A stretch of DNA of 64,000 nt from a bacterium (GCA_025782575.1 JALGYY010000025.1:138383-202382); one strand, 5' to 3'. Counted from the stretch's first letter, positions 44,918 to 59,842 are shown. Notes: generated by a model from the sequence alone, not told the origin. Numbers and translations are program-made.

Positions 44918-45035
44918 GCCCAGAACTCGGATGACCCGCAGGTCGTACGGAAGAAGTAGGCACCGTAGGCACCAACACGATGGCGGACGTTCGACATTCT
45001 CAGAATTCTTCAAAACATCTTGTTTTCCCGGGACC

Positions 45036-45053
45036 CTCTACTTAGGCGTAGAG
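45036..45053. promoter_or_regulatory. Small inverted repeat upstream of the short ORF and cytochrome gene
   Basis: CTCTAC and GTAGAG flank a 6-base centre (TTAGGC). It lies 30 bp before the start of the 45-residue ORF in the 165-bp promoter gap after the HxlR gene. It could be an operator; the evidence is symmetry and position only. Confidence 0.3.
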
Positions 45054-45082
45054 TGTATCTATGGAAGGAGGAAGGCCGCAAG

Positions 45083-45228: not shown

Positions 45229-46506
45229 ATGCCAATGCTCCGGCGCCCATCTCTCCTCATTCTGGCAGCTGCTGTAGCCGCGGGAGCTTGGTTGCGCCCA
45301 CAGTCCTCAACAAGCGAAACAGCTTCCGACCAAGCTAAGGGAACTACCGTGACGCCACTCACGCGCTCGTGGGAGCGCGCCGTGCCCGCGCAGGATACCC
45401 CCGATGGGCTCGAAACTCTTCGGGCGGCTGAATGTGGCGAGTGCCACTCGGCCATCTACGAAGAGTGGAAGACAACGGCACATGCCCTCGCCCTGGAGGA
45501 TCTTCAGTTTCAAGCAGAATGGAGGAAAGACGACAACCTCTGGCTCTGCCTCAACTGTCATACGCCGCTCGAGAACCAACTGGAACGGATCGTCACGGGC
45601 CTCAAGAACGGCGACTTCCGTAGCCCCGTAGCACATCCGAACGATCGGTTCGATGCAACTTTACGCGACGAGGGGATTACATGCGCTGCATGTCACGTGC
45701 GGGATGGCACCATTCTTGGACCAGGTCTGGCCGAGGATGCTCCACATCCTGTAGCCAGCGGAGCCGGTCTTCTTTCCCAACAGATGTGTGAGGGCTGTCA
45801 CAATGTTCAGGAGCAGCTGAGCGAGACATTGATTTGCACCTTCGCGACTGGTGACGAGTGGCGCGCGAGTGGCCTCGCGGAAGAGGGAAAGGGATGCATC
45901 GACTGCCACATGCCGGCCGTCATGCGCCCCCTAGTCGAGGGGGGGGACGTGCGCCCCGGACACGAACACACGTGGATGGGTGCTGGAGTCGCCAAGCTCC
46001 CCCAACTCGTCGAGCCACTTCGTATGGCCCACGTGCCCGGATACGACGTTGAGGTTCGAGCGCGGCGTACCTCCTCGGACACGGGAGAGAAGGTGTTGAT
46101 CGACGCGTCAATCATGAACGCACGGGCTGGGCACGAGTTACCAACGGGAGACCCAGAGCGCTTCATCACGCTTGACCTTGTTCTCCTGGACGATAGCGAC
46201 GTATCGCATTGGAGCCATACGGAGCGGATCGGTGAGCTCTGGGAGTGGGCCCCAGAGGCGAAGCAGATCTCCGACAACAGTCTCAAGCCCGGCGAACGAC
46301 GCGAGTTCCACTACGCCGTGTCTCTTTCGCACGGAGTCGACGATCTCCTCTTTGTCGAAATCATTGCCCGCAACCATCGGATGACGGAGGAGAACGCCCG
46401 GGCAATGGGGATCTACGGCCGCTACCCGCTGGCGGTGGAGACCATCCATCAATACGTGTCCGTCGTAGAAGCCCGGGAAGAGCGCAAGGTTCATGAACAA
46501 TGGTAA
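45229..46506 (+). CDS. Secreted pentaheme c-type cytochrome (cytochrome c554-like)
   Basis: 425 residues with an N-terminal hydrophobic export segment and five CxxCH haem sites: CGECH, CLNCH, CAACH, CEGCH and CIDCH, all in the first 230 residues. The order and the GITCAACH and KGCIDCHMP context are typical of the cytochrome c554/NapC-associated multihaem family. The last 150 residues are beta-rich (GHELPTGDPERFITLDLVL). It is probably a periplasmic electron carrier; its redox partner is not in the window. Confidence 0.88.
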   Translation: MPMLRRPSLLILAAAVAAGAWLRPQSSTSETASDQAKGTTVTPLTRSWERAVPAQDTPDGLETLRAAECGECHSAIYEEWKTTAHALALEDLQFQAEWRKDDNLWLCLNCHTPLENQLERIVTGLKNGDFRSPVAHPNDRFDATLRDEGITCAACHVRDGTILGPGLAEDAPHPVASGAGLLSQQMCEGCHNVQEQLSETLICTFATGDEWRASGLAEEGKGCIDCHMPAVMRPLVEGGDVRPGHEHTWMGAGVAKLPQLVEPLRMAHVPGYDVEVRARRTSSDTGEKVLIDASIMNARAGHELPTGDPERFITLDLVLLDDSDVSHWSHTERIGELWEWAPEAKQISDNSLKPGERREFHYAVSLSHGVDDLLFVEIIARNHRMTEENARAMGIYGRYPLAVETIHQYVSVVEAREERKVHEQW

Positions 46507-46546: not shown

Positions 46547-49500
46547 TCACTCGGTCCGAACAGCTCTCGCCAGACCGCGTTCCTTCCATAGTGCAAAGAT
46601 CGCAGGATAGACCGTCAGTTCGAGCAGAAACGAAGTCACAAGCCCCCCGACCATGGGTGCAGCAATCCGCCGCATGACATCCGCCCCAGTTCCTGTGCTC
46701 CAAAGAACGGGAGCGAGCCCAATCATCGTGGTCATCACCGTCATGAGCTTGGGTCGAATGCGCCCGGCCGCCCCCTCAACAATGGCCTGCCCGAGATCCT
46801 CAAACGTCTTGACGTGGCCGTTCGCTACGCGCCGCCGGTGCGCCAGTTTGAGGTACAAGAGCATCACCACTCCAGTTTCCGCGTCGAGCCCGGCAAGAGC
46901 GATGAGGCCAACCCAGACCGCGACGCTCATGTTGTAGTCGAGGAGATAGAGAAGCCAGATGGCGCCTATCAGGGAAAATGGCACAGCAAGGAGCACGATT
47001 CCCGTTTCCACAAGCGACCTTGTGTTCAAGTAGAGAAGCACGAACACGAGCAGTAACGTGATGGGCACTACAACGATGAGCCTCGCCTTCGCGCGCTCGT
47101 AGTAACGGAACTGGCCCGCCCAGCCGAGGCGTACGCCAGGCGGAAGAACGACCTGGTCTGCCAGAACGCGCTTTGCGTCGTCTACGTAGTCCGCAACCGG
47201 CAACTCTCCGGTGTCTACGAACACGAAGCCGACAAGTTTTCCGTCTTCGCTACGAATCATCGGCGGCCCAGTAGTGAAGCTGATATCTGCGACCTGAGAG
47301 AGAGGTACCTGCGCCCCCGTTGCGGTCGCTACCAGCGTCTTCCCAAGAAGCTCCGGGTCATCCCGAAACTCCCGAGCATAACGAACATTGATGGGATAGC
47401 GCTCCCGGCCCTCTACGGTTTCGCTGATGTTCATTCCGCCAATCGCGGACATCACGACCTGGTTCACATCGCGAACACGCAGCCCGTGTCGGGCCGCATT
47501 CTCCCGATTGACGGTAATGTCGACGTAGAAGCCCCCCGTTGACCGCTCCGCGAATGCGCTTCTCGTGCCCGGAATGGCAGAGATCGCGCGCTCAATCTCG
47601 AGAGCCGCCCTCTCGATCGTCTTCAGGTCATCTCCAAACACCTGAATACCGAGAGGACTTCTGATTCCCGTCGCCAGCATCTCGGTTCGAGTCTGAATCG
47701 GCATCCACCAGATGTTCGGCATTCCAGGATACTGAAGCTCCTCATCCATCTCTTGGATGAGCGCCTCCCAAGTGAGCCCCGCGCGCCATTCTGAACGCGG
47801 CTTCAGCACGACTGTCGTCTCGACCATTCCAATAGGGGCTGGGTCCGTAGCTGTCCGCGCACGGCCCATTTTTCCGAACACGCTTTCGACTTCCGGAAAC
47901 TCCTTCAGCTGACGGTCCATCGCCTGGAGAACATTGGAGGCCTCCGTAATGGACATTCCCGGCGGCGCAGTCGGCATGTAGAGGATCGCTCCTTCGTTTA
48001 GTGGCGGCATGAACTCTCGGCCGAGCCCGAGGAAAGCTGGCACGGTCGCGCCCATCAGCAAGAGCGCCACGATAACAACGGCGTATCGGAATCGGACAAC
48101 GAACCGCACGACCGGCGTGTAAAGCCAAACCAGTAGCCGGTTGATTGGATTCTGCTCCTCGCGGAGAATCTTGCCGCGGACAAAGAGAGCGGCGAGCGCC
48201 GGAGTTAGCGTCACCGCGAGAATTGCTGCGAAGCCCATCGAGTAGGTCTTCGTGAACGCGAGAGGCTTGAAGAGACGACCTTCTGTTGCTTGGAGCGTGA
48301 ACACGGGCATGAAGGACACGGTGATGACGAGAAGAGAGAAAAAGATGGAGGGACCGACTTCTTGCATGCCGAGGATGACCGCGTCGAGCCGGGACCCTCT
48401 TCGGCCGGCAGCCGCCCAGTCGGCAAGCTTCTTGTGAACATTCTCGATGAGAATAATCGACGCATCCACCATCGCGCCAACCGCCACGGCGATACCGCCA
48501 AGCGACATGATGTTCGCCGTCAGGCCCTGGTAGTACATCGGGATGAATGCCAGGAGCACCGCGACCGGAAGAGTGATGATTGCGACAAGCGCGCTTTGTG
48601 CGTGAAGCAAGAAGAGGAAGATAATCACGCTGACGACTATCATCTCTTCAAGAAGAGTGTGCTTGAGCGTTTCGATTGCCTCCTCAATGAGGCCCGCCCG
48701 GTCATAGGTAACGACGAGCTCCACGCCTTCCGGGAGGCTGGTTCGCACCTCTTCAAGGCGCACCTTTACGCGGTCAATTACCTTCAGGGCATTCTCGCCG
48801 TAGCGCATTATAACGATGCCGCCGACGACCTCGCCCTCGCCGTTTAGCTCCGCAACGCCCCGCCGCATCTCCGGCCCAAGAGCAATCTGTGCCACGTCTC
48901 GAAGATAGACGGGCACGCCCCCCTGACCGCTCACTCGCAGGGGGACCATCTCCAGATCCTCGACCTTCTCAACGTACCCGCGGCCGCGAATCATCTGCTC
49001 GTGGCCTGCAATCTCGATTACGCGGCCACCAACGTCCTCGTTCGACTCGCGAACCGCTTTGATAACCTCGGCCAGGGAAATGCCGTAAGAAACGAGTCGG
49101 TCCGGGTCGAGGGTAATCTGGTACTGCTTAACGAAACCGCCTACGGAGGCGACTTCCGCCACCCCCGGCACGCTCTCGAGGGCGTAGCGCACGTTCCAAT
49201 CCTGGAGAGAGCGAAGCTCCTGCAGGTCATGCTGTCCGCTCCGGTCCACGAGCGCATACTGAAACACCCACCCGACTCCCGTAGCGTCCGGCCCAAGGGT
49301 GGGCACTACGCCCTCGGGGAGCTCGGCCTGAACCGTGTTCATGTATTCGAGCACACGGCTGCGCGCCCAGTAGATGTCGGTGTCGTCCTCGAAAATGACG
49401 TAGACAAAGGAGAGGCCAAAGAACGACTGGCCACGCACGAACTTCACCTTGGGAGCCGAGAGAAGCGCCGACGTGATGGGAAAGGTTATTTGGTCCTCTA

Positions 49501-49711
49501 CCAGGTCGGGGCTCTGCCCCGGCCATTCTGTGAAGATGATTACCTGGACATCGGAGAGGTCGGGAATCGCATCGAGGGGCGCTTCCCGAAGCGAATACCA
49601 TCCCCAAACCGCCAGCGCGGCAACAAAGAGAACGGTGAAGAGAGGATTCCGCGCTGAGACACCGATGAGCGCAGCGATCGGTCCCCGCGGAGAGTCAGGG
49701 CTAGTCCTCAT
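46547..49711 (-). CDS. cusA: Heavy-metal RND efflux pump, inner-membrane CusA/CzcA type
   Basis: The start at 49711 (MRTSPDSPRGP) is chosen; it overlaps the adaptor by 11 bp. It has about 1054 residues with RND topology. HME-family features include DLSDVQVIIFTEWPGQSPD, AVGAMVDASIILIENVHKKL and TEMLATGIRSPLGIQVFG, where the Met matches the CusA metal-relay Met. It exports monovalent (Cu, Ag) or divalent metal; the Met points to the Cus side, but this is not decisive. The gene converges on the cytochrome gene. Confidence 0.93.
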   Translation of the reverse strand: MRTSPDSPRGPIAALIGVSARNPLFTVLFVAALAVWGWYSLREAPLDAIPDLSDVQVIIFTEWPGQSPDLVEDQITFPITSALLSAPKVKFVRGQSFFGLSFVYVIFEDDTDIYWARSRVLEYMNTVQAELPEGVVPTLGPDATGVGWVFQYALVDRSGQHDLQELRSLQDWNVRYALESVPGVAEVASVGGFVKQYQITLDPDRLVSYGISLAEVIKAVRESNEDVGGRVIEIAGHEQMIRGRGYVEKVEDLEMVPLRVSGQGGVPVYLRDVAQIALGPEMRRGVAELNGEGEVVGGIVIMRYGENALKVIDRVKVRLEEVRTSLPEGVELVVTYDRAGLIEEAIETLKHTLLEEMIVVSVIIFLFLLHAQSALVAIITLPVAVLLAFIPMYYQGLTANIMSLGGIAVAVGAMVDASIILIENVHKKLADWAAAGRRGSRLDAVILGMQEVGPSIFFSLLVITVSFMPVFTLQATEGRLFKPLAFTKTYSMGFAAILAVTLTPALAALFVRGKILREEQNPINRLLVWLYTPVVRFVVRFRYAVVIVALLLMGATVPAFLGLGREFMPPLNEGAILYMPTAPPGMSITEASNVLQAMDRQLKEFPEVESVFGKMGRARTATDPAPIGMVETTVVLKPRSEWRAGLTWEALIQEMDEELQYPGMPNIWWMPIQTRTEMLATGIRSPLGIQVFGDDLKTIERAALEIERAISAIPGTRSAFAERSTGGFYVDITVNRENAARHGLRVRDVNQVVMSAIGGMNISETVEGRERYPINVRYAREFRDDPELLGKTLVATATGAQVPLSQVADISFTTGPPMIRSEDGKLVGFVFVDTGELPVADYVDDAKRVLADQVVLPPGVRLGWAGQFRYYERAKARLIVVVPITLLLVFVLLYLNTRSLVETGIVLLAVPFSLIGAIWLLYLLDYNMSVAVWVGLIALAGLDAETGVVMLLYLKLAHRRRVANGHVKTFEDLGQAIVEGAAGRIRPKLMTVMTTMIGLAPVLWSTGTGADVMRRIAAPMVGGLVTSFLLELTVYPAIFALWKERGLARAVRTE

Positions 49712-51443
49712 CTGGCGCACTCCAATACTCAAGGGCCGAGCGTATGCGGCTCTCCGCGGCAACGAGGAAGTTACCCGAGGTGACGACTTCGGCTCCCGGG
49801 CTCAGCCCGCTCAGCACCTCGTAGTAGGCGCCGCTCTTCGCCCCAAGCTCGACCTCTTGGGGCCGAAGCCGCCCCTCTCCCAGGTCGAGAAAGACCAAAC
49901 GTCGCGGACCGGTGTAGACGACCGCAGAGGCGGGCACTTGAGTGCGTTCTCCAAGGTCCACTTCGAGGCTCACGTTGCCATACATACCGGGACGAAGCTC
50001 AAGCTCGGTGTTGGAGAGTTCCACGCGAATCCGTCCCGCTCGCGTGTCTTCGTCGAGATAGGGGTATACGTAGCTGACGCGCCCCTCAAAACTGCGGCCC
50101 GGTCGATACGGAAGCGTGACATGAACCCTCTGGCCCTCCGCTACGTAATGGAGGTCACCCTCGTAGACTTCGGCTTCGACCCAGACCGTGTCCAAGGCGG
50201 CGATTTCGTAGAGAAGTTGCCCTGCCTGAACGTGGTCGCCCTTAACGACGTGCTTGTGGATGACGTATCCCGATGTGGGGGACTTTATCGTCACAGCCTC
50301 TTGAACCATTCCCCGCTGGCCGATGGCGTCGACTTCGGACTCGTCCAAACTCCAGAGAAGAAGCCTTTGTCGCGCAGCTCGCACGATTCCGTCCGCGCGG
50401 TCAGGGCGCCCCGTCCCGCGAGCGCTTGCTTGAGACCGAAGCGCCTGAAGATACTCTTCTTGGGCCACGTAGAAATCCGGACTGTAGACGGTGAAGAGCG
50501 CTTCGCCGCGTTCCACGCGCTGTCCGGTCCTGTTCACGAGCAGCTCTTCAATCCAGCCGGGGATTCGAAGCGTCACGTTCTCGAGGCGTGTTTCGTCATA
50601 GGCAATCTTCCCGACCGCCCGGACCAAAAGCTGCATCGGCCGCCGCACGACAAGGCCTGTCTTCACGCCGATGCGCTGGCGACGAACCTCATCAATCATG
50701 ATGACGCCCGTCTCCATCTCCGCACGAGTCACCGGTGTCAGGTTCATGTTGCAGATGGGGCACGTGCCGGGGGCGGCTTCTTTGACCGATGGGTGCATCG
50801 AGCACGTGTAGTGAGCAATCTCCTCGTCCCCGTGGAAATGGCTCTCCTCGTTAGGCTCCGTAGACTCAGGCTCAGCTTCGGGTGCCAGTGATTGGCTCGG
50901 CCTGCTCCATTCTGAACCTGTGCCGCAACGAAGCATCTGCTGTCCCATGTATGGGTTCTCGATGGTGTCTGCTTCCTGAAACCACTTCTGGTAGCCCTCA
51001 GCCATGGGGCAGAGGAAGATATGAAGCCCCTCTTGAAGGCGCCCATCCGAGGACGCAGCGCCAACAAGCGCTTCGCTCAGGTCACCAAAGCGAAGGCGGG
51101 CCGCCTGCAGGTCTTTGCTGGTGCCAAGAGCATCAGCGGCGTCGACTGCAGTGCCAAGTTGCTCCCGAGGGGAACCGGGGAGCTTTTGCTCCCCTTCCAA
51201 CACGCCGGAAATGGCGTGCGCCACGCTGTCGCAATGGGCCTTCAGCCCCTCGATGTTGTCGCTCGCAAGGAGCGCGCGCACGTCTTCGTACTGATTGAGA
51301 ACGCCCCGGAGTTCTTCGAGCCCGGCCGGGGAGAAGTTATGCCCCTTGTCGTCTGCATCCTCTGCCGCGGCGCCGACCAACGTTGCCACTGCCGCGCACA
51401 TCACAACGAGAAACCCCATCACGCGAATGGTTTTCGTAATCAT
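49701..51443 (-). CDS. cusB: RND efflux periplasmic adaptor (CusB type) with DUF3347 and metal-binding domain
   Basis: The start at 51443 overlaps the TolC-like gene by 4 bp. It has 580 residues: signal peptide, then a DUF3347-like helical domain ending IFLCPMAEGYQKWFQEAD and NPYMGQQMLRCG, then a heavy-metal-binding YHS-like domain (YTCSMHPSVKEAAPGTCPIC), then the HlyD-type lipoyl, hairpin and barrel domains (VERGEALFTVYSPDF, GYVIHKHVVKGDHVQAGQLL). DUF3347 at the N-terminus makes it longer than E. coli CusB. Confidence 0.92.
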   Translation of the reverse strand: MITKTIRVMGFLVVMCAAVATLVGAAAEDADDKGHNFSPAGLEELRGVLNQYEDVRALLASDNIEGLKAHCDSVAHAISGVLEGEQKLPGSPREQLGTAVDAADALGTSKDLQAARLRFGDLSEALVGAASSDGRLQEGLHIFLCPMAEGYQKWFQEADTIENPYMGQQMLRCGTGSEWSRPSQSLAPEAEPESTEPNEESHFHGDEEIAHYTCSMHPSVKEAAPGTCPICNMNLTPVTRAEMETGVIMIDEVRRQRIGVKTGLVVRRPMQLLVRAVGKIAYDETRLENVTLRIPGWIEELLVNRTGQRVERGEALFTVYSPDFYVAQEEYLQALRSQASARGTGRPDRADGIVRAARQRLLLWSLDESEVDAIGQRGMVQEAVTIKSPTSGYVIHKHVVKGDHVQAGQLLYEIAALDTVWVEAEVYEGDLHYVAEGQRVHVTLPYRPGRSFEGRVSYVYPYLDEDTRAGRIRVELSNTELELRPGMYGNVSLEVDLGERTQVPASAVVYTGPRRLVFLDLGEGRLRPQEVELGAKSGAYYEVLSGLSPGAEVVTSGNFLVAAESRIRSALEYWSAPDED

Positions 51444-52840
51444 TTCGCTTTCTCCTCTTCCTTCGCCCATGGGAGCCGCCCGACTGCGCGCCAAAGCTCT
51501 GCCGCTCGACGGTGGGCATCGGCGGTCGCTATTTCAGCCCCGAGCTCAACTGTTCGTAGGTTCTTTTCGCCCTCAATTACCGCCAGAAACGTGTTCTGAC
51601 CCGACTCAAAGCCTGAGCGAGCGGCCGCTAGCTGGTCGTTTGCGACAGGTATCAATCGCTCTCGGTAGAGCGTTAGGACGTGGCCCGCTTCAATCGCCCG
51701 CACGCGGGCTTGCTCGACGTGGACGCGGACCTCGTCCGCTCGTTTCTCAAGCTCGCTCTGTCTGCGGGATAGTTCTGCTTGGGCCTGTTCGGTCGCAGCA
51801 CGACGGCGGCCAAGCTGAATCGGGAGGTTGATGGACAATCCAACCGTGACCCGATGCTCGGGCTGCCCCCACATCGAGTTGTAGCTTCCGCCGAGCGTGA
51901 GGTCGGGATAGTACTCGCGTTTCTGAAGGCTGAGCGCTGACTCTGCGCCGCCAATACGTGCGCTTGCGGCCTGCAGCTCCGGTCGCGCACGAAGGGCTTC
52001 CTCTTCAAGCGCCGCTGCCGTGCGACTCGGTAGCGGTGGGGGAGGCTCCCGAGAGGGTGGGCGCGGAAGGTGCGCTTGCGGCGCGCGACGCAGAAGGCCG
52101 TTCAACTGAGCAACGACTACAGTGCGTTGAGTTCCGAGAACTATACGTTGGTGTTCGAGGTGCGCGAGCTCTACTTCTGCCTGCAGCGGGTCCTGCAACG
52201 ACGCGCGTCCAGCTGCATAGCGCGTCTCGGCGCTGTGCTTTAGCTCTTCGACAAGGGATAGGTGCTCCTCGTTTACCTCAAGGGAACGCTCTGCTGCGTA
52301 GAGCTCATCGAAAAGCGTCGATGCCATCAGCGCGAGCGTTAGTCGCGTTGCCTCGTAGTCATACTGAGCCGCTTCGGCTTCGGCGAGCGCAACCATCCCC
52401 CTCAGCCCACGCTTTCCTGGAAACGGAAACCTCTGGGTGACGCCAACTACCTCGCCGAAACGCGCGTCCCCTGCGCCGATGCTTCGCGGCGCGAAGGTGT
52501 ACCCGACGCTCGGGTCATCGAGCGCCTTTTCTTGTGGATAACGGGCCAGTGCTCCACGCCACGCCTGCCGGGCCGCCTCAATCGAGGGGTTCCGCTCTAG
52601 CACAAGCCGGACGAGCCCCTGTCGCTCGAGCACGTCGACACCTGCAAAGAGAGACTCCACTGGCGTCCCGACCGACTGTTCCACTGTTAAGCCTGGACTC
52701 AACCTCTCGAACTCTGATAGATGCGCTTTGTATCGCTGCCCAACGCCTCCTGCCGCGCATCCGGTTACCGCAAACGCTAGCGCGACCAGCGATAGACACC
52801 CCCCAATGGAGGTGGCGCAATGCCTGATATTCTTGTCCAT
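51440..52840 (-). CDS. Outer-membrane efflux protein, TolC/CusC family lipoprotein
   Basis: The start at 52840 (MDKNIRHC) gives about 466 residues. The signal sequence ends in the lipobox VTGC. The two outer-membrane efflux repeats are visible (LVLERNPSIEAARQAWRGAL, VGVTQRFPFPGKRGL, LRARPELQAASARIGGAE, LTLGGSYNSMWGQ). It is the channel of the tripartite metal pump with the two genes downstream on the same strand. Confidence 0.9.
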   Translation of the reverse strand: MDKNIRHCATSIGGCLSLVALAFAVTGCAAGGVGQRYKAHLSEFERLSPGLTVEQSVGTPVESLFAGVDVLERQGLVRLVLERNPSIEAARQAWRGALARYPQEKALDDPSVGYTFAPRSIGAGDARFGEVVGVTQRFPFPGKRGLRGMVALAEAEAAQYDYEATRLTLALMASTLFDELYAAERSLEVNEEHLSLVEELKHSAETRYAAGRASLQDPLQAEVELAHLEHQRIVLGTQRTVVVAQLNGLLRRAPQAHLPRPPSREPPPPLPSRTAAALEEEALRARPELQAASARIGGAESALSLQKREYYPDLTLGGSYNSMWGQPEHRVTVGLSINLPIQLGRRRAATEQAQAELSRRQSELEKRADEVRVHVEQARVRAIEAGHVLTLYRERLIPVANDQLAAARSGFESGQNTFLAVIEGEKNLRTVELGAEIATADAHRRAAELWRAVGRLPWAKEEEKAK

Positions 52841-52962
52841 ATTCCTCGCTCCACACACAGATTGGCTCCCCCAAACATATTGTGGGAGCATCACAGAGCA
52901 CGCGACGCGGGCGCGAATCGCCCGGTGCGGTCACGAACCCAAGAAGACCTGTTGTGTGGAAC

Positions 52963-53355
52963 TCAGATTAGGAAGGAACAGAAGCGGAGGAATCGCGGAG
53001 GACCAGCGCGGGGCACCGGTGGTCGACTCTGCGCCAGGAATGGGGTGCCCGTGGCGAAATCCGTCGAGGGTAGCGGAGACAGAGCGACAATCGACTGTGT
53101 AGAGTCAACCGTAGGAACTTTGAAAGCTGAGGCCGGCTGCGTGGGCGGGTTGTCTGCGATTTCAACGGTGCAGCATCCGCAGCTCTCTCCGGCCGGGCTT
53201 TCGCTCGGACACGCCTCGGCATCGCAGCAGCAAGACCGATGCACCTGGCCATCCATGTCGCACCTGTAAAGGAACTGCTGCGCCATGGAGCCCTGGGGCG
53301 CCACAAGCGCGAGAAGCACGAGTATTCGAATCACGCGTCCAAGCATATCGTTCAT
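52963..53355 (-). CDS. Small secreted Cys-rich protein of unknown function
   Basis: 130 residues. A signal peptide ending PQGSMAQ is followed by a Cys cluster (YRCDMDGQVHRSCCCDAEAC, ESCGCCTVEIAD) with eight Cys in about 35 residues and His nearby, then a Pro/Ser-rich tail ending in basic and aromatic residues. It lies 122 bp upstream of the metal efflux operon on the same strand. The Cys-His cluster suggests metal binding in the periplasm; no family was recognised. Confidence 0.65.
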   Translation of the reverse strand: MNDMLGRVIRILVLLALVAPQGSMAQQFLYRCDMDGQVHRSCCCDAEACPSESPAGESCGCCTVEIADNPPTQPASAFKVPTVDSTQSIVALSPLPSTDFATGTPFLAQSRPPVPRAGPPRFLRFCSFLI

Positions 53356-53531
53356 ACTCTCATCCTAGCCCGAGGGTTCCGGCTGTGCAAGCGGGGTCCC
53401 TTCTGATCCGGTCGACCACCCAACGCATTTTCTTGAGGGCCCCCCCGCGCGCGCGACCCTCGCCCTAGAGGACGAGCCGAAAACTGAATCTCCTCGGTTT
53501 CTCCGAAGACCCCGTTATCTGAGTACCCTTG

Positions 53532-54146
53532 CTATCCTCTACGTAGCGCGTACCCGGCTTTTTCCACCGCCGCGCCGAGGGCGTCTCTCGTCGGGGGATT
53601 CGCGGTGTCGACAATGACATGAGCCGCTTTCTCGCCGTAGCTTACGTTGGCTGCTTTCACGCCGTCGACCTCTAGAAGCGCTTTCTTGATATGAACAGCG
53701 CACCCTTCGCAAGTCATCCCCTCGATGGCCAGAATAACCTCGCTACCAATGCCCTCCTCGGCGATAGCAACGGTGTCACCGCCCCCAAGGAGAAGCCCAA
53801 TGTAGTTTGGGAAGAGCGCGAAGCCAACAACTGCTACCGTAGCTACCCAGAGCATCGTGCGGTTCAGCCGGCGAAGTTTCGCGTTTGGCATCTCACAAGC
53901 TGTCCCGGGGGCGCATTTCTCTTTCCGAAAATAGCTCAAGTAGAATCCCGCCGCGAGAAGCACCGCCGTTACTCCGAGAAAGAGCGGGCGCGCCTTCTCA
54001 AAAGTCGCCGAGACCCCTGCGGCCGAAACCCCGAAAACAAGGAGCAACAGCGGAAGCCAGCAACAAGCCGAAGCGACGATCGCCGCAAGAACTGAGCCGC
54101 CCACTGCCAGACTCGCGGCCCGGCTGGATTCAGATTTTGCGTTCAT
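53532..54146 (-). CDS. merT: Mercuric transporter MerT fused to a MerP-like HMA domain
   Basis: The start at 54146 overlaps the upstream gene by 4 bp. It has about 204 residues. The MerT part has VLAAIVASACCWLPLLLL, with the vicinal Cys28-Cys29 in the first helix, a second Cys pair in KCAPGTACEM, and three or more helices. The last 70 residues are an HMA domain (VILAIEGMTCEGCAVHIKKA), equivalent to periplasmic MerP. One chain can thus bind Hg(II) outside and carry it in to MerA. Confidence 0.92.
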   Translation of the reverse strand: MNAKSESSRAASLAVGGSVLAAIVASACCWLPLLLLVFGVSAAGVSATFEKARPLFLGVTAVLLAAGFYLSYFRKEKCAPGTACEMPNAKLRRLNRTMLWVATVAVVGFALFPNYIGLLLGGGDTVAIAEEGIGSEVILAIEGMTCEGCAVHIKKALLEVDGVKAANVSYGEKAAHVIVDTANPPTRDALGAAVEKAGYALRRG

Positions 54147-54448
54147 TCCGTACTCCTTTTTGACAGTGCTTCTACAAGGAGTTTTTTCGATGGTACTCCT
54201 GAAGTGCCATACATCCTGCACCCGAATGCATAATTGGTACTATTTCGGGCACTGGGATCCACGTCGACGCCATCTACCTGAACCGTTGGCGAGCCGAAGA
54301 AACGCAGGCGTTCAACGTCTTCTGCGCCACCCACCTCGACAGTTTCAACGGTGACGTCTGTTCCCGTCTCAGCAGCCACCTCACGAATCAATGCGAGCGT
54401 TGGCTCGTGATTGGGACAGCCCTCGAAGTAAAGAACCTGCACCTTCAT
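54143..54448 (-). CDS. Thioredoxin-fold protein of the mercury operon
   Basis: The start at 54448 has GAGGAGGTAAGG upstream; the longer frame would run into the promoter. It has 101 residues: VQVLYFEGCPNHEPTLALIR, then ERLRFFGSPTVQVDGVDVDP and ALFGC-like YAFGCRMYG. This small thioredoxin-like family with a CPNH motif often accompanies mercury genes. It has one Cys in the active-site position and a second near the C-terminus, so a thiol or Hg-transfer role is inference. It is the first gene after the left mer promoter. Confidence 0.78.
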   Translation of the reverse strand: MKVQVLYFEGCPNHEPTLALIREVAAETGTDVTVETVEVGGAEDVERLRFFGSPTVQVDGVDVDPSARNSTNYAFGCRMYGTSGVPSKKLLVEALSKRSTE

Positions 54449-54490
54449 TGTCCTTACCTCCTCTTGGTGTATTCCAACCTTCTTCCACAA

Positions 54491-54522
54491 AACATACACC
54501 TTGAAGTTGGGTTGAGGGTCAA
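54491..54522 (-). promoter_or_regulatory. MerR-type promoter/operator, left arm
   Basis: Read on the reverse strand: TTGACC as -35 (54517-54522), TATGTT as -10 (54491-54496) and a 20-bp spacer, longer than the standard 17 as MerR-family activation requires. The spacer holds the dyad-like element at 54498-54519 (ACCTTGAAGTTGGGTTGAGG on the + strand). It drives the thioredoxin-fold and merT-merP genes. Confidence 0.85.
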
Positions 54523-54547
54523 GGGGTGGGATTCCGTTCAATTTCAA

Positions 54548-54982
54548 TCACTTAGACTTTCTTCGGGGACGCTTTCTTGCAGTAACGCCCAGATTTTCTA
54601 TCACGGGGCATTCCTCCCCCCTCTCGACCGCCCCACACGCCCGAAGGAAGGACCTGAGAACACTTCGAACGTGTCGGAGTTCTTTCATTTGCGCTTCGAC
54701 GCTCCCGAGCCTTTCTAGAAGAAGCTCTCTGACCTCTTCGCACGGGCTGGTGACGCCATCGCGGAAGGAAAGGAGTGTCTTAATATCTCCCAGAGTAAGA
54801 CCGGAAGCCTGGGCTGCTCGGATGAAGCGAAGCCGCTCGACATGTTCGTGGTGGTAGTACCGGTAGTTCGATGCGGTCCGGCCTCCGGGCTGCAACAAGC
54901 CTTCTTTCTCATAGTAACGAATGGTCGAAGGGGGTGCACCTACCTCCTTCGAGACCTCGCCGATAGTAAGTCCTTGGGCCAC
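54548..54982 (-). CDS. merR: Mercury-responsive regulator MerR
   Basis: 144 residues, the exact length of Tn501-type MerR. The N-terminal winged helix is LTIGEVSKEVGAPPSTIRYY, with RTASNYRYY behind it. The three Hg(II) ligands are present as Cys81, Cys116 and Cys125, one residue offset from Cys82, Cys117 and Cys126 of Tn501 MerR, in GACGxxxRGEECPVI-like context. It lies between two similar MerR-type operators, one on each side, and should act on both. Confidence 0.95.
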   Translation of the reverse strand: MAQGLTIGEVSKEVGAPPSTIRYYEKEGLLQPGGRTASNYRYYHHEHVERLRFIRAAQASGLTLGDIKTLLSFRDGVTSPCEEVRELLLERLGSVEAQMKELRHVRSVLRSFLRACGAVERGEECPVIENLGVTARKRPRRKSK

Positions 54983-55100
54983 GCTCTGTGCTCCTTGAGT
55001 GAGTTAAAGTCAGCTTCAATGTTACCGGTAAGCACCCGACCACGTCCAGGGTCGCCCTCCTCATAAAGAGACGGAGAGAGTACACGCCCCATAAAAAGCC

Positions 55101-55132
55101 TGGACCTTAAAGTTGGGTTTAATGTGTATGAT
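55101..55132 (+). promoter_or_regulatory. MerR-type promoter/operator, right arm
   Basis: TGGACC (-35, 55101-55106), a 20-bp spacer and TATGAT (-10, 55127-55132). The spacer element at 55104-55125 begins ACCTTAAAGTTGGGTTTAAT and differs from the left operator at only about 5 of 22 positions. Transcription would start near 55139, 40 bp before the first gene of the rightward mer arm. Confidence 0.85.
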
Positions 55133-55178
55133 TGTAAAAACGACGAGAGGGTGGCGAAACCTTAAACACGAGCATGAT

Positions 55179-55760
55179 ATGGCAAGAGGACGAAAATATG
55201 GTTCCGTTGCATGTCTTGTCCTGTCGGGTATCTTCCTGGGGCCAACAGACGCGCCGGCAGAATGGTTCGACATCGGCTCCGGCCAAGCCATCACAATCGT
55301 CTGCAAGGCCGATTCGCTCAGCACCATCGACTTTCCCGCCTACCCCTTCGGCGAATTCTGGCCGCCTGGGACACTTACCTTCGCCGATCTCGTTAAGGAA
55401 TCACTCGATGGAGCGGCGGCGGCCTACACAGCCACCTTTGACGACGCGGGTTGTGGGTGCGGCGGCTATCCCGAAAAGCCGATATCCTACGTTTTTCACT
55501 ACGACAACGCTTCCCCTGGCTCACCGGAGGACAGCCTCGTTCTCTACACCGGCTTTCCCGACGGCGGTATGTGGGAGGTCGTGGGGGAAGCTTTGCAGGA
55601 TACTTCTACTAATACCTTTGCGCTGACGATTGAGGGCGGATACATCCTCGGAAACCGGAACTATGCGATCGCCTTATCACCCCCCTCCGCTTCGACTCCT
55701 CCGGACGAAGATCGTGCCGCTTCCTGGGGCAAGATTAAAAGTCTATTTCGCGATGAATAA
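55179..55760 (+). CDS. Unrecognised exported protein, first gene of the rightward mer arm
   Basis: The start at 55179 (MARGRKYGSVACLVLSGIFL) gives a signal peptide cleaved near DAPAEWF; the longer frame would begin inside the mer promoter. It has about 193 residues. The mature part is beta-rich, Gly/Pro/Asp-rich and contains a compact DDAGCGCGGYPEKP Cys cluster that could bind metal. No family was recognised. It is directly downstream of a MerR-type promoter and overlaps the next gene, so it should be induced by mercury. Confidence 0.7.
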   Translation: MARGRKYGSVACLVLSGIFLGPTDAPAEWFDIGSGQAITIVCKADSLSTIDFPAYPFGEFWPPGTLTFADLVKESLDGAAAAYTATFDDAGCGCGGYPEKPISYVFHYDNASPGSPEDSLVLYTGFPDGGMWEVVGEALQDTSTNTFALTIEGGYILGNRNYAIALSPPSASTPPDEDRAASWGKIKSLFRDE

Positions 55761-56688
55761 GCTGATCTGCCTTGCCCCACTAGTTTGCGTGCTCGTTTCG
55801 GCGGCGCCGGTCCGGGGACAGGGTTGCTGTACACCCGGCTCAAGTCCGCTGGGCGGTCTCTCGGGTGGGGCTTTGCATTCTCGGCAGCTGGAGGTGGGAT
55901 TTGCGTTTGAAGGTTACCGGCTTCACCAAGGTTATGAGGGAAGCGTTCAGGTACAAGATCCCGCTCGACGGGAGAGCACCGTTTATTCGACTACCGCCTT
56001 CGCCCGGTTTGGGATTTCGAGTCGCGCCGCGTTGATCCTGCAGTTGCCCCTTGAACATCGCCAGCGCTCGGCCCCTGCAATCCCGGAGAAGGGTCAGCCA
56101 AGTCACGACTTCTCGAATACGGCGATTGGTGACTTAACAACCCTGTTCATGATCCAAGCCCTGCCCATACACGGGCCCTCCGCCGCCACGGTTAATCTCG
56201 GGCTCGGGGTTAAGTGGCGGACCGGCCACGATGATCGCAAACAAGACGGGCTTCGCTTGCCAGTCGAACTTCAAACAGGCACCGGATCAAACGATCCGGT
56301 CTTCGCTTTGGTGGCCTACCGGCTCTTTACCTGGGGTTCCGTCTCGGGGAGTGCCGTTATCCGGACTCCGCAGAGGGGTCGGTCGGGGTATCGGTTTGGG
56401 CGGGAGCTAAACTACGACGTGCTCGCCCTCTTGTCCCTTGGGACGCGATGGAGCCTCGGCTCCGAGATTCGCGGGCGCAGCGCCAGCGCCGACGACTTCA
56501 GGGATGTGACGAGGGAGAATACGGGCGGTTCCCGCCTCCTGGTCGGTCCGCGCGCAATATACGCCTTGGCATCGGCGCCACTTACAATTGAGGCTGCCTT
56601 TCTCTTACCAGCCTGGCAAAACCTGACCGGCGAACAACTCGGCGTGAATGAACAGGCCACGATTGGTCTTCGATGGCGAACTTTCTAG
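55753..56688 (+). CDS. Outer-membrane beta-barrel protein of the mer arm
   Basis: The start at 55753 overlaps the preceding stop by 8 bp. It has 311 residues: signal peptide (MNKLICLAPLVCVLVSAAPV), then GQGCCTPGSS with a vicinal Cys pair at the mature N-terminus, followed by repeated amphipathic strands and a C-terminal Phe (LRWRTF), the barrel signature. No family was recognised. Its place between a mer promoter and merA implies a role in mercury handling at the outer membrane; the vicinal cysteines could bind Hg(II). This is inference. Confidence 0.7.
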   Translation: MNKLICLAPLVCVLVSAAPVRGQGCCTPGSSPLGGLSGGALHSRQLEVGFAFEGYRLHQGYEGSVQVQDPARRESTVYSTTAFARFGISSRAALILQLPLEHRQRSAPAIPEKGQPSHDFSNTAIGDLTTLFMIQALPIHGPSAATVNLGLGVKWRTGHDDRKQDGLRLPVELQTGTGSNDPVFALVAYRLFTWGSVSGSAVIRTPQRGRSGYRFGRELNYDVLALLSLGTRWSLGSEIRGRSASADDFRDVTRENTGGSRLLVGPRAIYALASAPLTIEAAFLLPAWQNLTGEQLGVNEQATIGLRWRTF

Positions 56689-56708
56689 AGAATAAGGAGA
56701 GACAGTAG

Positions 56709-56734
56709 ATGATAATCATTTCGATAATCATGAT
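56709..56734. promoter_or_regulatory. Direct-repeat/palindrome site upstream of merA
   Basis: GATAATCAT occurs twice (56711-56719 and 56723-56731), and ATGATAATCAT is itself a near-palindrome. The 12-bp periodicity and GATAAT units resemble a Fur-family box. It lies 42 bp before the merA start, inside the mer transcript, so a second control input is possible. Confidence 0.35.
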
Positions 56735-56775
56735 TTAGTAGGCGGCAATCAGCAGAAATTGGGAGGGACCACCCC

Positions 56776-58416
56776 ATGACCGAAAATAGAACGTACTCGA
56801 TCGAAGGCATGACCTGTGACCACTGCGCTCAGTCCCTTGCGGAGGCCCTGCGGGCCGTACCTGGAGTGAAGACAGCAGAGGTCAGTTTCAAGCAGCGCAG
56901 AGCGAAGATCGAGGCAGAAGCCGGCGTGGATGACGAGAGAGTTTTTGATGCCGCGAACGCGAATGGTTTTCGAGCCAGCCTGGCTGCCGGCTCCGGAGCG
57001 AAAGGGACACGTTCTGACGAAATGAACTTCGACCTGGTCGTCATCGGCTCGGGTGGCGCTGCCGTTGCAGCTGCGCTTGAAGCCTCGGGCCTCGGCGCCT
57101 CGGTTGCTGTCGTGGAACGAGGAACCATTGGAGGGACTTGCGTTAACGTGGGGTGTGTCCCATCCAAAACACTGATTCGTGCAGCCGAATCACTCCACCG
57201 CGCTCAAAGCACCCCCTTTCAAGGAATATCTGTCCGGGGTGGTCTCATAAATTACAAGGAAGTTTTGGAACAGAAGGACGAACTCGTGGGGAATCTGCGT
57301 CAGGCAAAGTACATAGACATCCTCGATGCCACCCCGGGAATTTCGCTTGTTAAGGGAGAGGGAGCCTTTGTCGCCAGGGGCAAACTCCGCGTCGGTAACA
57401 GGGTTCTCCGTTCTGACCGCTTTGTCATCGCTACAGGTTCCAGCCCTAGCGTCCCGCCTATTCCTGGTCTCTCGGACTCCGGGTTCCTTACCAGCACCGA
57501 ACTTATGGACCTCAAAGAACTGCCGGCCGAACTTCTCGTTCTCGGGGGCCGATATGTCGCCCTTGAGCTCGCACAGGCATTCTCCCGGCTCGGTTCGCGC
57601 GTTACGATCATTCAAAGAAGCAATCACATCCTTCCCACGGAGGATGATGATCTTACCGAAGCGCTCTCCGGGTATCTATCCGAGGAGGGAATCGACGTAA
57701 TAACCGGTGCGCTAACAACTGCTGTTCAGCGAAACGACGCAGGATACCAACTCAAGGTCACCGTTCAGGGTCGGTCGAAGACGTTCAGCGGCTCCCATCT
57801 TTTCGCCGCTACCGGCAGGCGGCCCAACACAGCGGCGCTGCACCTCGACACGGTTGGCGTTGCGATTGCTTCAGACGGGACCATTACAGTTGGGGACCAT
57901 CTTGAAACTTCCGTCCCGGGCATATTCGCAGCCGGCGACGTCATTGGTAACCCCGCATTTGTCTACACTGCCGCTTATGAGGGCCGGGTCGCGGCAAGGA
58001 ACGCGCTGAACGGCACGCGTGAAGCGCGGGATTACAAAGCGCTCCCCTGGGTTGTCTTCACCGATCCTCAGGTCGCGGGAGTGGGGCTCGACGAGCGGAC
58101 GGCTGCGGAAGCCGGTATTGCGGTCGATGTGGCGACACTCCCTCTCTCCGCGCTTCCCAGGGCACTTGCCGCACGAGACACGCGGGGCTTTATCAAGCTC
58201 ATTAAAGAGAGGGGGGGGGAGCGTCTTCTTGGTGCCAGAATTCTCGCGCCCGAGGCAGGAGACATCATCATGGAGCCGGCGCTTGCTATTCGCCACGGAA
58301 TCAGTGTGGACGACCTTGTGGGGACGTTTCACCCTTACCTCACACAGGCGGAGGGTATTCGGCTTGCCGCACAGTCGTTCAACAAAGATGTTTCGGAGCT
58401 TTCTTGCTGCGCGTAA
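56776..58416 (+). CDS. merA: Mercuric reductase MerA
   Basis: 546 residues. An N-terminal HMA domain (SIEGMTCDHCAQSL, Cys14 and Cys17) is followed by the FAD site VVIGSGGAAVAAALE, the redox pair GGTCVNVGCVPSK (Cys122, Cys127), the NADPH and dimer domains, and the C-terminal Hg-binding pair Cys544-Cys545 in SCCA. All key residues of the NADPH-dependent reduction of Hg(II) to Hg(0) are present. GGGAGG precedes the ATG. Confidence 0.97.
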   Translation: MTENRTYSIEGMTCDHCAQSLAEALRAVPGVKTAEVSFKQRRAKIEAEAGVDDERVFDAANANGFRASLAAGSGAKGTRSDEMNFDLVVIGSGGAAVAAALEASGLGASVAVVERGTIGGTCVNVGCVPSKTLIRAAESLHRAQSTPFQGISVRGGLINYKEVLEQKDELVGNLRQAKYIDILDATPGISLVKGEGAFVARGKLRVGNRVLRSDRFVIATGSSPSVPPIPGLSDSGFLTSTELMDLKELPAELLVLGGRYVALELAQAFSRLGSRVTIIQRSNHILPTEDDDLTEALSGYLSEEGIDVITGALTTAVQRNDAGYQLKVTVQGRSKTFSGSHLFAATGRRPNTAALHLDTVGVAIASDGTITVGDHLETSVPGIFAAGDVIGNPAFVYTAAYEGRVAARNALNGTREARDYKALPWVVFTDPQVAGVGLDERTAAEAGIAVDVATLPLSALPRALAARDTRGFIKLIKERGGERLLGARILAPEAGDIIMEPALAIRHGISVDDLVGTFHPYLTQAEGIRLAAQSFNKDVSELSCCA

Positions 58417-58461
58417 CGGCAATTTTGTGACCGGAATCCTGTCTCAAGTAGGAGAAGCATT

Positions 58462-58971
58462 GTGAGGTGTAGATCATTTTTCCTTTCGGTCGCCTTTGTC
58501 GCATTGTCGGTGGCCAGGGTGGCTGCGGCCGAGCGCGTATTCATCCACTTGACGGATAATTTTAAAGAAAACGATGGGCCGGTCTGCGTCGCCTTCAACG
58601 TGGCCTGGGGGGCGCTTCGAGAGGGACACGATGTCGAGATCTTTTTTGACCAGGACGCGACCTACGGGATCAAGCAGTGGGAGGCGGGAAAGACAGACCT
58701 CGGCCTCTATCCTCTTCCTGAAGATCTCAAAGATTTGCTTGTCGGGGCTTTCGGCGTAGACCGCGAAACCATACCCTCGGACTACCAGGAATTCCTCGGC
58801 TTTTTAAGTCAACAAGGCGCCTCTGTTACGGCAAACGGCTTTTGGAACGCCCTTACGAAGGTGGAAAATACAATCAAGGGCAAAGAGAATCTTCTTCCAT
58901 TTGTTGAGCCGCTAACTCTTGAGGAATTGGTCGACCACCGGAGAACCGCGACTGTATACTTGAGGTTCTGA
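58462..58971 (+). CDS. Exported DsrE-like protein of the mer arm
   Basis: 169 residues from a GTG start with AGGAG upstream, 45 bp after merA. A signal peptide (ending VARVAAA) is followed by RVFIHLTDNFKENDGPVCVAFNVAWGALREGHDVEIFFD, the pattern of DsrE/DsrF-fold proteins. A single Cys (GPVCVAFNVA) lies in the first helix, where sulfur-transfer relatives have other residues. It may trap or relay Hg(II) or sulfane sulfur in the periplasm; that is inference. Confidence 0.72.
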   Translation: MRCRSFFLSVAFVALSVARVAAAERVFIHLTDNFKENDGPVCVAFNVAWGALREGHDVEIFFDQDATYGIKQWEAGKTDLGLYPLPEDLKDLLVGAFGVDRETIPSDYQEFLGFLSQQGASVTANGFWNALTKVENTIKGKENLLPFVEPLTLEELVDHRRTATVYLRF

Positions 58972-59066
58972 GCAAGGTGGTCCGGGCCTCGCGGTCATTC
59001 ATGTGGCCCTGAAGAGGGTGGCCGAATTCAGCCGGAATCAGTGGCCGAATCGTGTTGGAATATGCA

Positions 59067-59293
59067 CCTGTGGGCCAGTCCGAAGTGGCGCCGTCGCCGA
59101 CTCATACGACAACGCGCTGGCAGAGACGATCATTGGTCTCTACAAAGCGGAGGTGATTCATCGAAGGGCTCCGTGGCGGAGCGTCGATGCGGTAGAGTGG
59201 GAGACACTGAATTGGGTTAGTTGGTTCAACTCTCGTCGACTACTCGGATCAATCGGATGGATTCCACCCGTGGAATTCGAAGCAGAGTACTGA
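59067..59293 (+). mobile_element. IS3-family transposase remnant (C-terminal end of OrfB)
   Basis: The open frame reads ADSYDNALAETIIGLYKAEV, then EWETLNWVSWFNSRRLLGSI and PPVEFEAEY before a stop. This is the last 70 residues of the IS3/IS150-type DDE transposase, including the catalytic Glu region. The rest of the gene and the ends of the element are missing. It marks the right boundary of the mer island. Confidence 0.8.
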
Positions 59294-59842
59294 CGAAGCC
59301 AGGCCAAAGAGGCCGAGAAACTGGTACTCACATAACGGGGTCTTCGGAGAAACCGGGGAGATTCACTCCCAGCCTCCCCGGGTATGTGCCGCGTGGCAGT
59401 CGCGGGCTTAGCAGGGGCGGAAATTACGCTTCTGCAATTCGATCTAGTCTTGGGCACTACGGGTCGCCTTAATAGGTTGGCCGACTGGTAAATATAAATA
59501 GGTAAGCAGACACGTAGGGCTCATGTGGGGAGAAGTGCCCTGTAGTGGCCAGAATCACCATTCGACTCTGGGCTGTGACAGGATCCTGAGCTACAAGCTG
59601 GCCTCACTCCGTCAGAATCCTCGAACAGCCCCAGAATGCCGGGCTAATCATTCTAAATACATTCGATGCTGCGCCGGACGCGCTATTCCATATGGAGAGG
59701 ACCGCTTCTCAATGCCACGGAAATACTATTGGGCAGGGTCCGGATCGCAGCCTAAAGTGCCAGCCGAGTTGGCCGATCTCAAGAACAGGAGAGTCCGCGT
59801 TGGGCTGAATGGGTCTCTGGACCCCCGAGGGGAGGATTTTTA
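59294..59842. other. Intergenic region between IS3 remnant and cupredoxin operon
   Basis: About 550 bp with no convincing gene. It includes the hairpin repeat at 59352-59386. The open frame starting at 59523 has no ribosome binding site and no family features and is judged non-coding. The promoter of the cupredoxin operon should lie here, but no clear -35/-10 pair was found. Confidence 0.5.
59366..59386. repeat. Extragenic palindrome-like repeat, copy 1
   Basis: The 21 bases starting CTCCCAGCCTCCCCGGGTAT are found again exactly at 63858-63878. Here the sequence pairs with ACCGGGGAG at 59352 to form a hairpin. Read in reverse it looks like the CATxCCCGxGGAGGCxGGGA class of extragenic repeats. 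Confidence 0.55.

Follow-up and report, generated by a model that had tools for sequence, protein, structure and literature searches.

A single MerR-type repressor-activator probably runs a two-armed mercury regulon through two matched operators, A and C, which lie on either side of its own gene and belong to opposed promoters. Textbook mer operons are run from a single switch, whereas here the sensor gene stands between two. The leftward arm carries a DF-family thioredoxin-fold gene and a fused merTP, and the rightward arm carries two genes for predicted exported proteins (exp1 and exp2), merA and a further predicted exported gene. The features of the locus are given below, numbered from the first nucleotide of the window, the whole 64-kb stretch of bacterial DNA that was analyzed.

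53485..53527 (-) and 59323..59365 (+): IS3-type 43-bp ends, an inverted pair, 95% complementary
53532..54146, minus strand: merTP, a MerT domain and a C-terminal HMA (MerP-like) domain in one ORF, 204 aa
54143..54448, minus strand: DF-family thioredoxin-fold gene, 101 aa, with Cys11 and Cys77
54491..54522, minus strand: promoter/operator A of the left arm, TTGACC and TATGTT with a 20-bp spacer, dyad at 54498-54519
54548..54982, minus strand: merR, 144 aa, GTG start
55001..55022, minus strand: site B, a weak dyad resembling an operator, 18 bp in front of the merR start
55101..55132, plus strand: promoter/operator C of the right arm, TGGACC and TATGAT with a 20-bp spacer, dyad at 55104-55125
55179..55760, plus strand: exp1, 193 aa, predicted to be secreted, with a CGCG motif
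55753..56688, plus strand: exp2, 311 aa, a predicted beta-barrel of the outer membrane, with CCTPG close to the N-terminus of the mature protein
56776..58416, plus strand: merA, mercuric reductase with an N-terminal HMA domain, 546 aa
58462..58971, plus strand: predicted exported ORF with no family assigned, 169 aa, earlier called 'DsrE-like'
59003..59293, plus strand: 3' remnant of an IS3-family transposase (NF033516 and rve_3)

Two matched operators flank merR

MerR-family factors bind dyads within 19-20 bp promoter spacers and hold the promoter closed, until metal binding leads to a DNA distortion that aligns the two hexamers (PMC9909328). Promoters A and C are both of this type, each with its dyad inside a 20-bp spacer, which bears out the claim of the initial annotation that such a promoter is present on both flanks of merR. 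Operator A is placed as are the operators downstream of merR in related loci. In operator C, the -10 hexamer matches at five of six positions, and the -35 hexamer (TGGACC) is poorer. The 22-bp elements had been described as almost the same, with about 17 of 22 positions identical; the agreement is 18 of 22 when both are read on the same strand, and only about 12 of 22 in the direction of the promoters, since only the half-sites match in that direction, the 6-bp center being inverted. The two regions also share a 25-nt direct repeat (54489-54513 and 55095-55119) that is 80% identical.

The core motif common to A and C has exactly these two exact sites in the window, where 0.04 sites would be expected at up to three mismatches. 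The genome-wide search proposed in the initial annotation gave the same picture, as A and C are the only exact matches in 4.88 Mb, accompanied by four others with three mismatches each, which is about the number given by a reversed-pattern control. With a promoter-shaped pattern, the whole genome yields A, C and one match with three mismatches.

An independent measure was provided by a 32-bp matrix built from 22 operators of other loci, with no sequence from the window, these operators having been found by a generic scan for MerR-type promoters beside the merR genes of related loci. Over all positions and both strands of the window, A ranks first (32.4) and C second (20.3), while the maxima of 60 simulated windows average 6.3 and reach 19.1 at the highest. 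A version of the matrix that includes A was applied to 525 kb of related loci, and at a score of at least 19 it found 65 sites near merR-type genes and none elsewhere; since many of the former had trained the matrix, the informative part is the zero elsewhere. It is highly improbable that the A/C match is due to chance or to a shared repeat with no regulatory role. Their best agreement does occur on the same strand despite the opposed promoters, as in a plain duplication, but the top two matrix ranks, the genome-wide uniqueness of the motif and the placement of the elements inside 20-bp spacers all argue against such an explanation, as does the recurrence of the two-sided arrangement in another locus, L132.

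The strength of the two operators is unequal. A falls within the range of the training operators (31.5-43.9) and C below every one of them, and this low score, together with the poorer -35 hexamer, leaves room for a weak response of arm C, or for none; the low score of C is the main doubt about this arm. Alternatively, only the left arm might be activated by MerR, with C being a copy that curbs merR and has either decayed or become purely repressive, and the right arm being transcribed from another promoter. The drifted right half-site of C, the appearance of a direct duplication and the presence of a left arm only in the nearest relative, L170, are in line with this proposal, as is the score itself. 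However, C retains the 20-bp spacer and five of six positions of the -10 hexamer, the same TGGACC -35 is found in the sole operator of L170, which scores 24, and a generic promoter scan found no sigma-70 promoter of normal spacing near exp1. Activation of the left arm alone seems unlikely to us, and control of both arms through A and C is the reading that we prefer.

The regulator and its metal

The regulator is a member of the MerR-family metalloregulators, with a winged helix-turn-helix and a dimerization helix, and it exceeds the cut-offs of both Pfam models, MerR_1 (PF13411, 80.3 bits) and MerR-DNA-bind (PF09278, 64.4 bits). The three cysteines that had been named as Hg ligands are present at the corresponding positions (Cys81, Cys116 and Cys125, with a C116-C125 spacing of 9), but they are not diagnostic of mercury, as the closest solved structures, PbrR691 and CadR, both have equivalent cysteines. 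The score for the Hg-responsive MerR model TIGR02051 (103.2 bits) is below its curated cut-off of 150.85, and among the NCBIfam models the protein stays below the cut-offs for MerR, ZntR, CadR-PbrR and CueR alike. Given these scores and the nearest structures, the three cysteines alone do not specify mercury.

A regulator that mainly answers a soft metal other than mercury (Pb, Cd, Zn or Cu), with mercury genes recruited under its control, would fit its equal closeness to the ZntR, MerR and CadR-PbrR models, its nearest solved structures and the operator ends, which resemble those of the CadR/PbrR type. Yet merTP adjoins the regulator both here and, together with the DF gene, in many relatives, merA lies on the other arm, and the spacing of 9 between C116 and C125 fits MerR, even if it fits PbrR691 too, so that we consider a different principal metal quite improbable. 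The assignment to mercury rests on merTP and merA.

Proteins encoded by the two arms

The left arm had been described as a thioredoxin-fold gene followed by merT and merP, and this order stands, with the modification that MerT and MerP are fused in one ORF and that the thioredoxin-fold gene belongs to the DF family. In the fusion, MerT (PF02411, E 5.5e-15) and HMA (PF00403, E 1.2e-12) both pass the Pfam cut-offs, and the match to the NCBIfam MerTP_fusion model (NF033556) reaches 101.8 bits, which is below the cut-off of 180. Its cysteines are Cys28-Cys29, Cys78, Cys84 and Cys146-x2-Cys149. The DF gene passes NF049942 (116.5 bits versus a cut-off of 70) and matches Thioredoxin_3 weakly, below the cut-off.

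On the right arm, MerA is recognized by TIGR02053 (554.4 bits versus a cut-off of 454.45), and has the redox motif CVNVGC, the HPYLT motif and a C-terminal Cys544-Cys545 pair. The description of this arm in the initial annotation as two exported genes, merA and a further gene is retained, but the second exported protein is a predicted outer-membrane barrel and the 'DsrE-like' label of the last gene is unsupported. PF02635 has no match at E<=10 across the whole genome. The last ORF has no match in Pfam, NCBIfam or the plasmid search, a PDB sequence search gave chance-level matches only, and its single-sequence AlphaFold model, with a pLDDT of 46, is too poor to be of use. For exp1, there is no Pfam or NCBIfam match and no homologue in any of the fetched loci.

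The exp2 protein is likewise recognized by no Pfam or NCBIfam model and has no match in the plasmid search. Its AlphaFold model (pLDDT 78.7, pTM 0.77) is a clear barrel, and Foldseek aligns it to FapF and to a COG4313 channel (E 3.5e-10 and 1.1e-9, TM 0.65-0.75) at an identity of only 10-14%; these models lead to the prediction of an outer-membrane beta-barrel. According to profile searches, many of the mer loci that were fetched contain a relative of exp2, including L062, L079, L034, L172, L178 and L179, a recurrence that is not an enrichment figure, as the loci were chosen for holding merA or merR. Such a barrel, found in mer loci of several phyla, could be a missing outer-membrane step in mercury handling. 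The same genome has a third merR-type gene (L099, contig 49) that is directly followed by an exp2-type barrel gene and has a MerR-type promoter upstream. In the gap between exp2 and merA (56709-56738), there is a mini-ORF (MIIISIIMI) that has a good Shine-Dalgarno sequence and contains two GATAATCAT repeats resembling a Fur box.

A weak site upstream of merR

With a symmetric 22-bp matrix that was not trained on it, site B, which is absent from the initial annotation, ranks third in the window. Simulated windows give about 1.2 sites of this quality each, and the expectation for the gap between merR and exp1 is about 0.004. Another matrix, with downstream operators alone as its training set, was applied to the upstream regions of 26 relatives. 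In 12 of these, the best site (score at least 5) precedes the conserved IGE codon by 31-41 bp, and such a score occurs at any position in 2.8% of random 160-bp stretches. In two of the 12, L129 and L179, the upstream site is a full promoter. These findings suggest that site B is probably an autoregulatory operator, weak in the window, through which MerR may control its own gene.

Proposed mechanism

According to the model that we favor, MerR, transcribed leftward, would bind the dyads of A and C in the overlong spacers of the two opposed promoters and, without metal, keep both promoters closed. Binding of Hg(II) by Cys81, Cys116 and Cys125 would cause MerR to underwind the spacers, and both promoters would open. 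Promoter A would then provide the importer MerTP together with the DF protein, and promoter C would provide exp1, the putative exp2 outer-membrane channel, MerA and the further exported protein. As one regulator would open both arms, uptake (by MerTP, and perhaps the channel) and reduction (by MerA) are expected to rise together, and site B would probably let MerR limit its own synthesis. What the analysis establishes is the set of genes and promoters, the specificity of the elements and the layout in comparison with other loci, whereas the metal, the binding of MerR, induction, autoregulation and the roles of the exp proteins are inferences.

Related loci and the origin of the second arm

Among the 35 merR loci closest to the merR of the window, 22 have a downstream, co-directional operator only. 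In a tree of 69 MerR proteins, the window falls in a supported subclade of 37 rows (99/91) that is dominated by the layout with a downstream operator, and its MerR adjoins that of L170 (99/99), a one-armed locus from the same family. The merR gene of L170 is 76% identical and is accompanied by an operator (TGGACC-20-TATCTT), the DF gene and merTP; its 18 kb contain no merA, no exp genes and no divergent operator. Since L170 is one-armed and the layout with a downstream operator dominates the subclade, the left arm appears to have been inherited as a module, and the merA arm to be what is new. Judged by this comparison, the merR-A-DF-merTP block is the older part and arm C was added later.

Two-armed loci are found elsewhere as well. 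In L132, strong sites (38 and 39) flank merR, with the DF gene on the left and MerC on the right, and these two are the only matches of at least 16 that a generic scan found in 13.3 kb; its neighbor in the tree, L133, is one-armed. In L179, which sits on a long branch and is not part of the subclade, the divergent arm encodes an HMA protein together with a barrel of the exp2 type, the co-directional arm leads to MerT, and the divergent site is weak (19.4). On the tree, the two-armed label needs two changes within the subclade, and both two-armed loci of the subclade have one-armed sisters, which makes a repeated gain of the second arm likely, gain being likelier than loss, short of proof. The initial annotation considered two separate arms unusual; this is true to the extent that a single operator region is found in most of the related loci that were surveyed, but the downstream operator is the norm of the subclade, and L132 and L179 are two-armed too. 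Within this survey, it is the divergent, merA-carrying arm and not the downstream operator that sets the locus apart. In the same genome, a second merR-DF-merT cluster (L003/L098, contig 17) has its operator upstream of merR, not downstream.

A broader generalization can be offered only tentatively. The subclade might be characterized by a main operator downstream of merR and a weak autoregulatory site upstream, with divergent operators having been gained repeatedly and having placed genes for reduction or for outer-membrane channels under the control of the one sensor, and the exp2-type barrel might be an unrecognized recurring mer component. The locus offers a way to test how operator copying lets a MerR-type regulon grow.

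Relation to known mer systems

The classic mer layout has one operator region between divergent promoters. Systems of the Tn21/Tn501 type, in which merR is divergent from merTPAD, likewise combine a MerR-type activator, a promoter with an overlong spacer, MerT and HMA transport, and MerA. In contrast to their single operator region between divergent promoters (PMC3466566), the locus described here has a second operator downstream of merR, two arms and a fused merTP. In their survey of 272 operons, Boyd and Barkay (2012) recorded merR as divergent in 143 cases and as co-directional (termed convergent) in 52, and distinguished those two classes only (PMC3466566). In the open-access literature, no description of a merR between two matched operators was found. 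Close counterparts are the loci of the same subclade with the order merR-operator-DF-merTP (L170, L133, L137, L139 and others), which share the downstream operator and the left-arm genes, and L132 and L179, where merR also lies between divergent and co-directional MerR-type promoters but the content of the right arm differs (MerC in L132, an HMA protein and a barrel in L179). The switch mechanism is classic, but the two-sided arrangement is new and rare and appears to have arisen more than once.

More than one regulated mer transcript per locus is present in Streptomyces lividans, with two divergent operons, and in TnMERI1 of Bacillus megaterium, with merB3 and a main operon. The S. lividans genes are under ArsR control (PMC3466566), that is, under a repressor of another type than the MerR-type regulator found here. 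In TnMERI1, whose gene order has been described (PMC6920998), the operators are reported to be co-directional and a second merR is present, in contrast to the opposed operators and single merR of our locus. In the golTSB cluster of Salmonella, the gene of a MerR-family regulator lies between the controlled genes golT and golB (PMC3739760, PMC8264917); the regulator is thus placed among its targets as it is here, but the system responds to gold/copper, is co-directional and lacks a reductase.

Borders of the mer block and neighboring sequences

The mer block is enclosed by the 43-bp IS3-type inverted repeat, the right copy of which lies 3' of the truncated IS3-family transposase. A related end (89%) is present on contig 37 of the genome. 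A mobile element with intact ends was considered and rejected, as no target duplication was seen by eye and the transposase is truncated. Just beyond the left IS end, a small cysteine-rich ORF (52963-53355) encodes a predicted exported protein with no family assigned, and a large RND-type efflux set with pump, membrane-fusion and outer-membrane parts adjoins the mer block on the minus strand (46547-52894). Farther to the left, a MerR-type promoter-like site (45030-45061) has a matrix score of 10.3, above the simulated mean and below the simulated maximum, and lies upstream of a CxxCH-containing cytochrome-like ORF (45229-46506).
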